In this document: in pieces, positions 17,675 through 24,850 of the stretch
Layout: each line of letters begins with the position of its first letter
Numbering within the stretch: the first letter of the stretch is position 1
Source: Leptospiraceae bacterium
Lineage (GTDB): Bacteria > Spirochaetota > Leptospiria > Leptospirales > Leptonemataceae
Length of the DNA stretch: 33,630 bases
Assembly: GCA_020440915.1 (NCBI GenBank)
Contig: JAGRNE010000007.1
Location: 1 to 33,630 of the forward strand
Direction: 5' to 3'
Translations under genes and position numbers: made by a program
The notes under the pieces: generated by a model
What the model saw: only the letters and a program-made list of their open reading frames with translations
Databases searched by the model: none
What the model was told of the DNA's origin: nothing

Positions 17675-19831
17675 ATGGAATGGATTCTGCTATTATTACT
17701 TGGCGGCCTGGCGGCCGGCACTGCCTTCTGGGCGGCAGGCGGTAGAGACGAGGACGGCTCCGATCTTCCCCGCGGACCGGGTCCCCGGAGCAGCCCTGAT
17801 TTGCCGGAGGCAGGAGGATCCGGGGATGCCAGGGATCGGGCCCGACCTGTTGTTGTAGGCGAAAAAGGCTCCAGGGAGGAGGCGGCCCGGGCTATTCGCG
17901 ACGCTTTTGAAAAGGCTCCCGATTCAGTGAAAGGTAAGCTTCTGGAAGGGGAGCCGGATCGGGTTAAGGATACAGTTGAGCAACTGAAAGAGGAGCGCAG
18001 GAAGAAACGCCGCAAACCTCTGAAGATCACATACAAGGCCGATGAAATCGTTCCCCGGTCTTCTCCGTATGCACACCATCGTCGGCCCTTGCAGAGCGCT
18101 GAAGCCCTGGTAGAAAACCAGCAACCGGACGAAGCGCTTTCCATATATCAGAGGGTGAAAAACCGCATCTCGGACGAGGTCCCGAGAGAGAAAATCGATA
18201 CCAACATTGAAGATATCAAACGATGGCAGGAAGGCCTGGATCTTGAAGAAGACGAAGGTTTCGAATTCCCGGAAATCATTATTCCTCTGACCACCCAGGC
18301 CCTGGCTCTGGAGAACCTGAGCGAAGGCCTCCGTAGTCTTTCCGATACCTTATCTCGTCAGATTGGAGAGGCTCTGGCCCACGCCCTTTCCAGGCAGCCG
18401 ATTCAGGGGCAGTTTACCGGCGATCTCCGTAGCGGCGGTCCTGCTCCATCCGGCGCTCCTTCCCAGTCCGGCGCGGCCGCTGCTCCATCGCCGGCCGGCG
18501 CTGCAGCCCCTGCTGGTCCGGCCCAACCTGGCGCTGTATCCGCTGCAACACCTTCGGCCTTTGCGGCCGGCGGGATGGCCACAGGAGCGCTGGCTTACGC
18601 TGGCGAGCTTCCTCCTGGAATACCTCAGATCGCAGTGCCTTCCGCCGCGGTGCCCACCGGAGAAATTGTTCAGGGATATGAGCCTGCCGAATACCAGGAC
18701 TACGGTTTCCATGGCCTGGATGTAGACGAACTTGGGAACGTTCGCACCGATGGTTGGACCGATGCGGATTTCGAAAGGGAATGGGAGAAGTACAAGAATC
18801 TGCCTGCCTTTGATCGCCGTTCTGGAATTGAGCGCCGTAGCGGATCGGATCGTCGGGGAGCTCCCGATCCAAAGCGGCCGGATCGAAGATCCGGCGAAGA
18901 TCGACGGAAGAAGGATCTTTTTAAAGAGCGCGAAGAGTTTCTCAAGAAGCTGGAGAAGCATCGGGAGAACAAAAAGAAACTAGAAGAACTCAAGAAAAAG
19001 CCGCCCGAACCGGTAAAGATGCCCGCGGCGCCGGTACCGGCTGCGGCCGCGCCGGCCGAGGAAAAGGAAGAAACGGTTATTCGCATCGAAAATGCGCGAA
19101 TCGAAATCGGAGAATGGCCGCCCCGCGATGAGGCCCGAACCGAACCGGAACCTGAAATTGAGCCCGAGCCGGAACCGGAACCCGAGCGCGAAATTGAACC
19201 GGAACCTGAAATTGAGCCCGAGCCAGAACCAGAGCCCGAACCCGAGCCTGAAGAAGAAGAGGAAGAGGCGGAGGAGGAAGAAAAAGGGGAATCGGACACA
19301 CAGAAGATCGACCATGTGGCGGCTACAGATCTGGAACCGCTGGGATTTCCTTCCCCTCTACCCGAAGAGCAACCAGAAGGGCCGGAGGCGAAGGAGCCGG
19401 AACCTCTGGATACTCGATCCAGTATGGCCGAAGACGAAGAGCTTGGCGAAGGCGTGGAGGCCGCAGAATTTCCTGAGTCCTCGCCGGAGGAGCCACAGCA
19501 GGTGCAGGAGATTCGCGGCGTTCTGGAGCTCAAGCCTCCGGATGAAGACGATGCTCCCTTCCTTACGCTTACCTACGATTTCTCCAAGATTCCCGATTCC
19601 TTCAAACTGAGTCGAGATTATCATACCATGGAATATGCGTACTACAAGTACAAACCCATGCTTATCAAGGCTCAAGAGTTTACGCGTCGCAAGATGCTAA
19701 AGAATGCTCTTAACTATTACAGGGTGATCAAGTCCCAGAACATACCTCCGGAGTTCAAGAGAATGGTCAACCGCAACATTCGCGACATTACAGACTACCT
19801 TGAGAAATTCCTGATGAGCAGAAGCGAATGA
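17675..19831 (+). CDS. Membrane-anchored low-complexity protein with repeated TPR-like modules
   Basis: 718 residues that I do not recognise as a named family. A single N-terminal hydrophobic helix (2-20) anchors it, with most of the protein probably outside the cytoplasm. A helical TPR-like module at about 142-189 is followed by an Ala/Pro/Gly-rich linker (250-320). A segment with RRSG repeated three times (380-410) precedes a Lys/Glu coiled coil, then a Glu-Pro repeat tract (490-530) and a second helical module at 666-712. The two modules align without gaps over 40 residues, sharing AL, Y, K and the NIxDI motif. The layout suggests a scaffold with two binding modules on a long spacer. Its TGA overlaps the ATG of the symporter gene by four bases. 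Confidence 0.8.
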   Translation: MEWILLLLLGGLAAGTAFWAAGGRDEDGSDLPRGPGPRSSPDLPEAGGSGDARDRARPVVVGEKGSREEAARAIRDAFEKAPDSVKGKLLEGEPDRVKDTVEQLKEERRKKRRKPLKITYKADEIVPRSSPYAHHRRPLQSAEALVENQQPDEALSIYQRVKNRISDEVPREKIDTNIEDIKRWQEGLDLEEDEGFEFPEIIIPLTTQALALENLSEGLRSLSDTLSRQIGEALAHALSRQPIQGQFTGDLRSGGPAPSGAPSQSGAAAAPSPAGAAAPAGPAQPGAVSAATPSAFAAGGMATGALAYAGELPPGIPQIAVPSAAVPTGEIVQGYEPAEYQDYGFHGLDVDELGNVRTDGWTDADFEREWEKYKNLPAFDRRSGIERRSGSDRRGAPDPKRPDRRSGEDRRKKDLFKEREEFLKKLEKHRENKKKLEELKKKPPEPVKMPAAPVPAAAAPAEEKEETVIRIENARIEIGEWPPRDEARTEPEPEIEPEPEPEPEREIEPEPEIEPEPEPEPEPEPEEEEEEAEEEEKGESDTQKIDHVAATDLEPLGFPSPLPEEQPEGPEAKEPEPLDTRSSMAEDEELGEGVEAAEFPESSPEEPQQVQEIRGVLELKPPDEDDAPFLTLTYDFSKIPDSFKLSRDYHTMEYAYYKYKPMLIKAQEFTRRKMLKNALNYYRVIKSQNIPPEFKRMVNRNIRDITDYLEKFLMSRSE
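19142..19224 (+). repeat. 54-bp-period direct repeat coding for Glu-Pro tract
   Basis: A 29-base sequence at 19142-19170 recurs exactly at 19196-19224, an offset of 54 bases or 18 codons, within a longer Glu-Pro coding tract. The repeat keeps the frame, so gain or loss of one unit would lengthen or shorten the spacer without disrupting the gene. Confidence 0.85.
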
Positions 19832-22124: not shown

Positions 22125-23297
22125 ATGATACGAGCAACAACTCTCATCCTAATCTTTAGCCTGGCAGCCGGTATGCATTGTTCTATGGCTTCGGCCATGC
22201 GCGACGCTACCACCGGCAGCTACGAGGAGGGGGCCACAGAGAGCTATCCGGAACAGTCCAAGCGATCCAGGATGGACAAGGAAGAAGAAGATGCGCCGGC
22301 CGGCGCCGCCGATGAAAGCCCTCAGGAGCGCATGGTCATCTATAAAGCCGGCCTCCACAACACAGTAAACGAAATTGAACCCGCTCTACAAAAGGCCAGG
22401 GCCATTGCCGAGAAGTTTGGCGGCTATGTGGAAAAGCAAAAGGTAGATAAGGACGATACAACGGCCTATCTTGTGTTGCGTGTGCCGGTAAAGAGCTTTC
22501 AGGATGTTCTGGCCGACCTTTCGACCATTGGCAAGGTTGTAAAAAGAGACATTAGCGCCGACGATATAACCCGTGAATTCGCGGACCTGTCCCAGCGATT
22601 GGAGAATCGTAAGCGCTTGCTTGCTCGACTCTATGACATACTGAAAAAGACTACGGACACCAAACAGAAAATACGAATTCTAAACGAAATCGCCCGACTC
22701 AACAAAGAAGTGGAATCCATGCAGGCCCGCAAGGATTACATGCAGAAAAAGGCGGCCTTCTCTACCATTGAGGTTAGCTTTCGAGCAGAAGCAAGAACCA
22801 GCGTTAATCAGGGTTCGGCCATACCCTGGATTCGAAGTCTGCGACCGGATCGAAGAACCCTTTCTCTGGCTCCCGACTTTAAATTCGAGATGCCTTCTGG
22901 CTTTCTGGATTATTCCGAAGACTACGGAGATGACGGCGATTACATCTATGCCAGTCCGGACGGCGTTCAGATTCGAGCCGCCACCATCGAAAACAATCCC
23001 GAGGCAGATGCAGTGTACTACGAAAGAGCGTTGCTCTATGAGCGTGGTCGGTATCCGGAGAAAGTCCTGAGCAGCGAAGCGAGCGCCAATCGCGTAAGCT
23101 TGACAACTCCGCAGCAGGTTGGCTATAACAAAGCCTTTTATACCATTGTCCTCTTTGTGGATGGGCAGGATCTTCACGTTATCGAAGTATTCTATCCTAC
23201 AGAAGAGGTATTCAAGAAGCAGCGTTCCGCCGTGGAACGCGTAATCAAGACCATCGAGCCTAAATCGATCCTGGACATTCTGGAGGGAATACTATGA
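22125..23297 (+). CDS. Exported DUF4349 protein with additional C-terminal domain
   Basis: 390 residues. The signal peptide is followed by either a loose lipobox (GMHC, Cys19) or an ASA cleavage site, so export is clear and lipidation uncertain. Residues 70-222 are a DUF4349 domain, including VLRVPVKSFQDVLADL, ISADDITREFADLSQRLENR and a coiled-coil segment. IPWIRSL (233-239) then links to a second domain (255-380) with PSGF, SPDGVQIR and a closing helix. Unlike most DUF4349 proteins it has no C-terminal membrane helix. The next two genes repeat these two domains separately. The gene starts an overlapping four-gene set, and its stop shares ATGA with the next start. Function unknown; envelope-associated. 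Confidence 0.85.
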   Translation: MIRATTLILIFSLAAGMHCSMASAMRDATTGSYEEGATESYPEQSKRSRMDKEEEDAPAGAADESPQERMVIYKAGLHNTVNEIEPALQKARAIAEKFGGYVEKQKVDKDDTTAYLVLRVPVKSFQDVLADLSTIGKVVKRDISADDITREFADLSQRLENRKRLLARLYDILKKTTDTKQKIRILNEIARLNKEVESMQARKDYMQKKAAFSTIEVSFRAEARTSVNQGSAIPWIRSLRPDRRTLSLAPDFKFEMPSGFLDYSEDYGDDGDYIYASPDGVQIRAATIENNPEADAVYYERALLYERGRYPEKVLSSEASANRVSLTTPQQVGYNKAFYTIVLFVDGQDLHVIEVFYPTEEVFKKQRSAVERVIKTIEPKSILDILEGIL

Positions 23298-23941
23298 GAA
23301 GGAAAGAGCGGAATCATACTGCCGGAAAAGCGGCCCTGGCCCTTCTAATCCTGGGTTTCCTTGGGCTTCCTTTGCAGACCATTCGCGCTGAAGACGATAA
23401 CCGTGAAAGCATGGAAGTCACGGCTCTGGAATTCTCGGTGCGCGCCGAATCGCCGGATCGGTTCATCGATGAAATGATGGCTTTCAGTAGCAAGGAGGGA
23501 GGATACCTGGTCACCCTTCGATCGGGTTATGCCGAATTTCGCATTCCGGCCAGGCTGGGACGGGAAAGGGTGGAAGGTCAGATCTCATCGATTCCAGGCA
23601 CCTTCCTGTATCAATCTTCGCGTGAAACGTCCGATGTGGCCGGCGAAATGGTGGACCTTCGGGCCAGGCTGAAAGTCGCCGAAGAGAATCTGGCCAAACT
23701 ACGGGCTCTTTCCGGAAGTGCAGGATTGGACGATCTTCTGGATCTGGAACGAGCGCTGAATCGTTCTCTTGAAGAAGTAGAGTCCCTGAAAGGGCAGATC
23801 AACTACTTGAAGGAGTCTTCCAGTTTATTTGCCGTGAAGATTCGCATCAACGCTTCTGGCGGAACATCGGATCCAGAAAAGGTTCGCATACCCTGGGTGC
23901 GATCGCTGACCTTGAATGGCATTATGGGAGGCCTTGAATGA
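23294..23941 (+). CDS. Exported DUF4349 domain protein (single-domain paralog)
   Basis: 215 residues. An Arg-rich start and hydrophobic core end at IRA, giving a signal peptidase I site near residue 32. The rest is a compact DUF4349 domain: FRIPARLGRERVEGQISSI, the TSDVAGEMVDLRARLKVAEE region, a coiled coil and FAVKIRINA. It then repeats the motif IPWVRSL (199-205) seen as IPWIRSL in the preceding protein, and stops. It is therefore a paralog of the first domain of its upstream neighbour. Both ends overlap neighbours by four bases (ATGA), a sign of coupled translation. Function unknown; the coiled coil suggests pairing, perhaps with the upstream product. Confidence 0.84.
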   Translation: MRRKERNHTAGKAALALLILGFLGLPLQTIRAEDDNRESMEVTALEFSVRAESPDRFIDEMMAFSSKEGGYLVTLRSGYAEFRIPARLGRERVEGQISSIPGTFLYQSSRETSDVAGEMVDLRARLKVAEENLAKLRALSGSAGLDDLLDLERALNRSLEEVESLKGQINYLKESSSLFAVKIRINASGGTSDPEKVRIPWVRSLTLNGIMGGLE

Positions 23942-24390
23942 AATCAGCATCAATACTTGCTATCCTCTTCACGCTGACGCTGGTTGCGAACTGCAAGACG
24001 CCCAGCATCAATACCCCGGCTGGATTTGCCGTTTATGAAGGCCAGAGCACTCAATACAATCTGGTGTCGCCGGATGCCGTTCGCATTCGGGTTTACAGAA
24101 CCAAAAATCAGCCGGTGGGTAGCCTTGCCACACTTACCAATGCAGTGGAGCTACATTTTCAATCCCTGGGCTACCGGGTGTTGCGAAACGAGAATATTTC
24201 CACGAATGAAGGATTAAGCGGCCGGCTCTTCCTGACTTCCGTGATGACGATGAACGGTGAGTATCGCTATCTGGCTTCTTTCTTTCCCATGGAGGAAGAC
24301 GTGCTGGTGGTGGAGGCCGGCGGACGAAAAGAAGACTTTGATCCCTATGAAAAGGAAATCATCGCTCAAATCAAAACTCTTAAACCATAG
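23938..24390 (+). CDS. Lipoprotein resembling the C-terminal domain of the first DUF4349 gene
   Basis: 150 residues. The signal peptide ends in LVANC, with Cys19 as the lipidation site. The mature sequence begins PAGF and continues with VSPDAVRIRVYR, matching PSGF and ASPDGVQIR in the second domain of the 390-residue protein two genes upstream. The later strand FFPMEEDVLVVEAG and the final helix ending QIKTLKP match VFYP and VIKTIEP there. It is thus a free-standing copy of that domain, anchored by its own lipid. It overlaps the previous gene by four bases and the next by 44. The similarity is judged by eye; function unknown. Confidence 0.8.
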   Translation: MKSASILAILFTLTLVANCKTPSINTPAGFAVYEGQSTQYNLVSPDAVRIRVYRTKNQPVGSLATLTNAVELHFQSLGYRVLRNENISTNEGLSGRLFLTSVMTMNGEYRYLASFFPMEEDVLVVEAGGRKEDFDPYEKEIIAQIKTLKP

Positions 24391-24850
24391 TTACGAGGGC
24401 AGCTTTCTGTCTGCCCTGATTATCGTTTCGCTGGTTGTGTCCGGCGCTTGCTCTCTGGAAGACCGCCCCAGCCCTCCGGCGCCTCCCATAGGCAAGAAAG
24501 TGGTCTATGATGGAGAAGGAAGGAAAGATGTATATACCTTCTGTCCCGAAACCGTTGAAGTGGAGTTTCGCCATTCGCCGGATCGACCGCACATTCAGGA
24601 AGGAACCTGGCGACGCTCCGGCGAAGAGATCATAATTCATTGGAACCTGGAACGCGGTGGCCGGGGTCAGGGAAAACCTGTGGGCGAATGTCCGGACTGT
24701 GTTTTTCCATCGTATAAGGCATTTTCGCAGGCTCTGAACGAAGAGCAGCGAATGCCGTGGAAATTTATCGAGGAAAATCCCTTCGGAGACTGGAGCATTT
24801 CCGATCATGCTCGCCCCTGTCCTTCCATTCAGAACAGAAAGAGTCAATAG
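24347..24850 (+). CDS. Hypothetical lipoprotein, last gene of the DUF4349 cluster
   Basis: 167 residues from ATG 24347. A basic N terminus and hydrophobic stretch end in VSGAC, so Cys35 is the likely lipidated residue. The mature part is small, with GTWRRSGEEIIIHW, a beta-rich pattern reminiscent of lipocalin-like extracytoplasmic domains, and a CPDC pair that could bind metal or form a disulfide. I do not recognise a family. The start lies inside the preceding gene; no strong ribosome site is visible, so translation probably depends on the upstream gene. The frame is open further upstream but the signal peptide favours this start. Confidence 0.68.
   Translation: MKRKSSLKSKLLNHSYEGSFLSALIIVSLVVSGACSLEDRPSPPAPPIGKKVVYDGEGRKDVYTFCPETVEVEFRHSPDRPHIQEGTWRRSGEEIIIHWNLERGGRGQGKPVGECPDCVFPSYKAFSQALNEEQRMPWKFIEENPFGDWSISDHARPCPSIQNRKSQ

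Follow-up and report, generated by a model that had tools for sequence, protein, structure and literature searches.

Three consecutive genes of a Leptospiraceae bacterium code for a two-domain lipoprotein followed by separate versions of each of its domains. They are found in the 33,630-nt stretch of DNA analysed here, hereafter called the window (GCA_020440915.1, contig JAGRNE010000007.1, positions 1-33,630, forward strand). The first protein joins a DUF4349 domain and a domain predicted to adopt the Mog1p/PsbP/DcrB fold, the second consists of DUF4349 alone, and the third is a lipoprotein with only the second type of domain. The trio is kept in the same order in other spirochaete families, and sequence trees point to an ancient duplication at its origin. 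On balance, we favour the idea that the three proteins make up one membrane-tethered periplasmic complex of two homologous (DUF4349 + Mog1p/PsbP/DcrB-like) protomers, one of them in a single chain and the other in two.

Gene 1 (22125..23297, + strand) codes for the 390-residue composite lipoprotein, as delineated by its ORF, Pfam, alignments, AlphaFold and Foldseek. A lipid-type signal peptide with Cys19 and a disordered stretch (residues 21-61) precede the DUF4349 domain (residues 69-240, 22329..22844, + strand; PF14257 and alignment), which ends with the motif IPWIRSL. The Mog1p/PsbP/DcrB-like domain follows (residues ~252-378, 22878..23258, + strand; profile-profile comparison, AlphaFold and Foldseek). 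Based on its ORF, Pfam and alignments, gene 2 (23294..23941, + strand) codes for a stand-alone DUF4349 protein of 215 residues, with a non-lipoprotein signal peptide and a short conserved C-terminal tail, IPWVRSLTLNGIMGGLE. Gene 3 (23938..24390, + strand) codes for a 150-residue lipoprotein, with Cys19 and the Mog1p/PsbP/DcrB-like domain only. An earlier note made from the sequence of the window had proposed this division of domains among the three proteins, and it holds. The note also ascribed ATGA overlaps to all three genes; the overlaps are present in the window sequence, at two junctions, i.e. between genes 1 and 2 (23294..23297, + strand) and between genes 2 and 3 (23938..23941, + strand). 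We read both stop/start overlaps as translational coupling. A scan for sigma-70-type promoters upstream of the trio yielded no candidate. Right behind gene 3 lies a small lipoprotein-like ORF (24347-24850, lipobox SGAC), and a similar gene occupies the same position in three loci of the same genus. Elsewhere in the window, positions 17675-19831 code for a genus-conserved protein of 718 residues, which matches TPR weakly and contains an extended region of Glu-Pro repeats.

The DUF4349 assignments of genes 1 and 2 both exceed the gathering cut-off of PF14257 (27.7 bits), with the matches covering residues 69-230 of gene 1 (E=1e-38, 133.3 bits) and residues 45-197 of gene 2 (E=7.2e-17, 61.9 bits). 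The family was also matched in 19 of 19 relatives of gene 1. The two domains of the window are 25% identical (BLASTP E=1e-8), and profile-profile comparison relates them with a probability of 99.0 (E=3e-18). Like other members of the family, both proteins are exported and have a long helical hairpin, and gene 1 also shares the motifs RVP..F and D[VI]T with the family. Weak NCBIfam matches of the coiled-coil hairpin of gene 1 to families of helical pore-forming proteins scored far below the cut-offs, and we attribute them to the helical hairpin as such; the NCBIfam search of the window proteins gave no credible match.

The IPWIRSL motif, which had been taken for a linker between the two domains of gene 1, is in fact the conserved, Trp-containing end of DUF4349. 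Its Trp residue (W235 in gene 1, W201 in gene 2) is invariant in the alignments of both families, and in stand-alone spirochaete DUF4349 proteins the motif takes the form GPLGWVFYG and leads into a hydrophobic tail, GPLGWVFYGLYVGVKWLFVWD. We found this C-terminal tail after the Trp motif in four stand-alone members, and we treat it as a trait observed in such proteins rather than as a curated family criterion. Unlike them, gene 2 has a short, non-membrane tail (mean maximum hydropathy of 0.61 vs 1.39 in the stand-alone member L016), and gene 1 has its PsbP-like domain in place of the hydrophobic tail.

The C-terminal domain of gene 1 and gene 3 are 26% identical (BLASTP E=2e-6), and profile-profile comparison firmly relates them (probability 99.5, E=3.6e-23). 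The observation of the earlier note thereby withstands the profile check that the note had set for it. Furthermore, a genome profile search with the gene 3 family recovers the C-terminal domain of gene 1 at positions 22881-23258 of the window (E=1.5e-10). No Pfam family, DcrB (PF08786) included, matches gene 3 or the C-terminal domain of gene 1. Among 17 relatives of gene 3, the best match to PF08786 was that of a single protein (E=0.0057) and was not significant, and searches of PDB sequences with the gene 3 and gene 1 profiles returned nothing credible.

The AlphaFold model of gene 3 (pLDDT 92.9, pTM 0.83) has 38 Foldseek matches in the PDB at E<=0.001, with TM scores up to 0.66. Most of them are EagT6/SciW, PsbP/CyanoP and DcrB structures, and EagT6, PsbP, DcrB and CyanoP were matched with a probability of 1.00. 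The model of gene 1 (mean pLDDT 83) is composed of two confident domains, mostly above 85, and a flexible join; with a pTM of 0.46, it does not fix their mutual placement. Its top PDB match is DcrB, and no clear match was found for its DUF4349 part among the matches listed. Since both models match DcrB/PsbP/Eag structures, gene 3 and the C-terminal domain of gene 1 share one predicted fold, in agreement with the homology first proposed from the sequence. On the basis of these models, both belong to the Mog1p/PsbP/DcrB fold, which the earlier note had not named. This fold is used in photosystem assembly, effector chaperoning and lipid export, and because it serves such differing roles, likeness to DcrB or PsbP conveys no function.

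We know of no description of Mog1p/PsbP/DcrB-fold proteins fused or co-operonic with DUF4349. The superfamily comprises DcrB (PF08786), PsbP/CyanoP, LpqN and EagT6/SciW, with which gene 3 and the C-terminal domain of gene 1 share the fold but no sequence-level match; DcrB and LpqN are envelope lipoproteins too. DcrB acts with YciB in membrane fluidity (PMC9487459), and LpqN acts with MmpL3/MmpL11 (PMC7458404). PA1624 of Pseudomonas aeruginosa (PMC7716261) likewise combines two domains in a periplasmic protein, one of them Mog1p/PsbP-like. In contrast with gene 1, PA1624 has its PsbP-like domain at the N-terminus, an OmpA-like domain as the partner and no lipidation Cys, and we found no mention of split paralogues in that description. 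In the open-access literature searched, DUF4349 is found only in a Tat tail-anchor screen and in an evolution study of P. aeruginosa, with neither such a module nor a function for the family. Relative to that literature and to general knowledge, the trio is an undescribed module. It offers a testable architecture for DUF4349, an exported domain with no function assigned in those reports, which thereby gains a concrete set of partners including a PsbP/DcrB-like lipoprotein.

The conservation of the Cys residues at the N-termini differs among the three proteins. Cys19 of gene 1 is conserved in at least 90% of the rows of its family alignment and is invariant in a further alignment, and Cys19 of gene 3 is similarly conserved in at least 90% of the rows of its own. 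Alignments of the gene 2 family contain no conserved lipobox Cys. Genes 1 and 3 thus likely code for lipidated proteins; for gene 1 we say no more than likely because its lipobox in the window, AGMHC, is missed by a simple lipobox pattern. The presence of a lipobox Cys in genes 1 and 3 and not in gene 2 would provide one lipid anchor per protomer in the split arrangement.

To survey the phylum, we searched 393 sampled genomes with the profile of the gene 3 family. It was matched in 34 genomes, which represent 24 of 168 genera and 12 family labels. Two matches, corresponding to the C-terminal domain of gene 1 and to gene 3, were found in 32 of the 34 genomes, about 1 kb apart when on one contig. 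The exceptions, G062 and G237, both carry fused gene 2-3 proteins; one of these fusions is adjoined by gene 1, and the other lies at the edge of its contig. Among carrier genomes with complete contigs, there is no case of the C-terminal domain of gene 1 without gene 3, or the reverse. The named carriers include Turneriella sp., Leptospiraceae, Spirochaetales and Sediminispirochaeta, all of them metagenome-assembled genomes.

Wherever the flanks of a trio are intact in this 34-genome set, its genes are arranged 1-2-3 on a single strand. The earlier note had suggested looking for conserved order in Leptospirales, and the order is kept across many families of the phylum. Overlaps of four bases are found at the gene 1/2 junction in 25 of 33 trios and at the gene 2/3 junction in 17 of 33. 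Apart from a block of flagellar genes described below, conservation of the neighbours (ACT-domain/PaaK, UbiE and SpoIIE phosphatase genes) is local only. One locus (L104:1-2905) has a partial gene 1, gene 2 and gene 3, and then a second copy of gene 1 directly downstream, the N-terminus of which has no clear lipobox.

A composite gene beside its own split paralogues might arise if a gene had recently been duplicated in tandem, with fission, in the lineage of the window, as the earlier note had suggested from the layout as such. The trees argue strongly against this. In the DUF4349 tree, 40 of 40 gene 1 domains are on one side of a branch with a support of 99, and gene 2 and the stand-alone members are on the other. 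In the tree of the PsbP-like domain, all the C-terminal domains of gene 1 are separated from gene 3 with a support of 94. Both trees are quick ones, with an arbitrary root and no resolution of the deeper forks. In addition, genes 1 and 2 of the window are only 25% identical in their DUF4349 domains, whereas gene 1 shares 70-73% identity with the orthologues from three sister species. Given a single split between gene 1 and genes 2/3 in each tree, across all families, and trios in as many as 12 family labels, we reject a recent duplication, the likelihood of which is negligible. As judged from these trees, the duplication is ancient and older than every trio found.

In four lineages, genes 2 and 3 form a single ORF (L065:8312-9352, also in L103; L091:7635-8627; L074:7747-8343; L110:6929-7810). 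The signal peptide and lipobox of gene 3 are missing at the join in each case, which indicates that the fusions are not frameshift artefacts, and the fused proteins have no lipid anchor site from gene 3. The ORFs of L074 and L110 are truncated by contig ends and still cover the join. As the nearest relatives of each fusion are split, the four fusions are independent. An overlap between genes 2 and 3 at L093:7723-8486 suggests a fifth fusion with a broken frame, whether natural or due to an assembly error; we left it out of the count.

Recurrent fusion of genes 2 and 3 in the domain order of gene 1 is a classic sign that two chains meet. In the complex that we favour, the first protomer would be gene 1, with both domains in one chain and an N-terminal lipid anchor, and the second would be made of two chains, gene 2 and gene 3, of which the PsbP-like one would bear the lipid anchor. 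Gene 2 would dock onto gene 3 as the counterpart domains do inside gene 1, and the two protomers would pair, most plausibly via the long helical hairpin that each has in its DUF4349 domain. We infer such pairing, in an obligate heteromer, from the invariant gene block, the coupling, the re-fusions and the co-divergence of the proteins; its stoichiometry and function are likewise inferred. For the last of these four points, the three proteins' pairwise distance matrices are correlated, with r=0.89-0.93 (0/2000 permutations), values that species history alone could produce. Of the two explanations put forward in the earlier note, the assembly of fused and free domains into a complex thus gains indirect support, and recent duplication does not. 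The trio is a clean natural case of one ancient duplication retained in both fused and split forms, in which four re-fusions provide built-in evidence of interaction.

Free paralogous domains beside a fused protein would also suit regulatory titration, with genes 2 and 3 acting as modulators or competitors of gene 1, e.g. gene 3 occupying the partner site of gene 1; the separate lipid anchor of gene 3 could localize it. Nevertheless, the repeated re-fusions, always with 2 followed by 3, suit a joint protomer better, and we consider such modulation quite improbable. The divergence of gene 2 from the DUF4349 domain of gene 1, at 25% identity, might alternatively reflect paralogues with separate functions that merely have an operon in common. 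This is very improbable in view of the invariant order, the recurring fusions and the constant presence together of gene 3 and the C-terminal domain of gene 1 on complete contigs.

As for the role of the proposed two-protomer complex, comparable PsbP/DcrB-type lipoproteins (DcrB, LpqN and PsbP) act as accessories of membrane machines or in maintaining the membrane, which suggests that it may be an accessory or a scaffold for an envelope machine. In some lineages, that machine may be the periplasmic flagellum. In eight of the 34 trio genomes, from three families, the trio lies directly behind a fliF/G/H/I/J-SLT-flbB run, on the same strand and ~60-260 bp after flbB. The genes of the run were identified by Pfam at one of these loci (L080), and FlbB was confirmed in the three linked loci tested, with matches to the NCBIfam equivalog NF047368 above its cut-off (E=1.7e-45 to 3e-52). 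The flagellar collar of spirochaetes, as described in Borrelia, is built on a scaffold ring formed by FlbB (PMC11750108).

This linkage would fit an accessory role in the motor or collar of the periplasmic flagellum: the trio would assemble with the FlbB ring or close to it, and rearrangements would have moved it away from the flagellar operon in other genomes. Moreover, FliG_C is matched in 33 of the 34 trio genomes and FlbB in 30, and G237, a complete genome with neither a full-strength FliG match nor a FlbB match, has FliP ~8 kb from the trio. Flagella are almost universal among spirochaetes, and the co-occurrence is hence of little weight. In the genus of the window and in most other trio genomes, flbB is distant or on another contig, the trio is absent from most sampled genomes of the phylum (present in 34/393), and G237 keeps it without a FlbB match. 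A flagellar role is unlikely on the whole. Its most elaborate version is rather improbable: an undescribed spirochaete envelope machine, in which a pseudo-symmetric, lipid-tethered heterodimer or ring with one covalent and one split protomer would join the FlbB collar in assisting the periplasmic flagellum. The FlbB linkage nonetheless yields one functional hypothesis that lends itself to direct testing, in a phylum that relies on periplasmic machinery for its motility.

Outside these genomes, no relatives of gene 3 were found in the viral contigs searched. The plasmids searched contained no composite protein; no match there spanned more than 60% of the query, and most of the matching was to its DUF4349 part. 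An intact trio is present on a contig filed under 'Candidatus Brocadiia' (L112, JABWCH010000104.1), which could be a case of transfer or a misbinned spirochaete contig.
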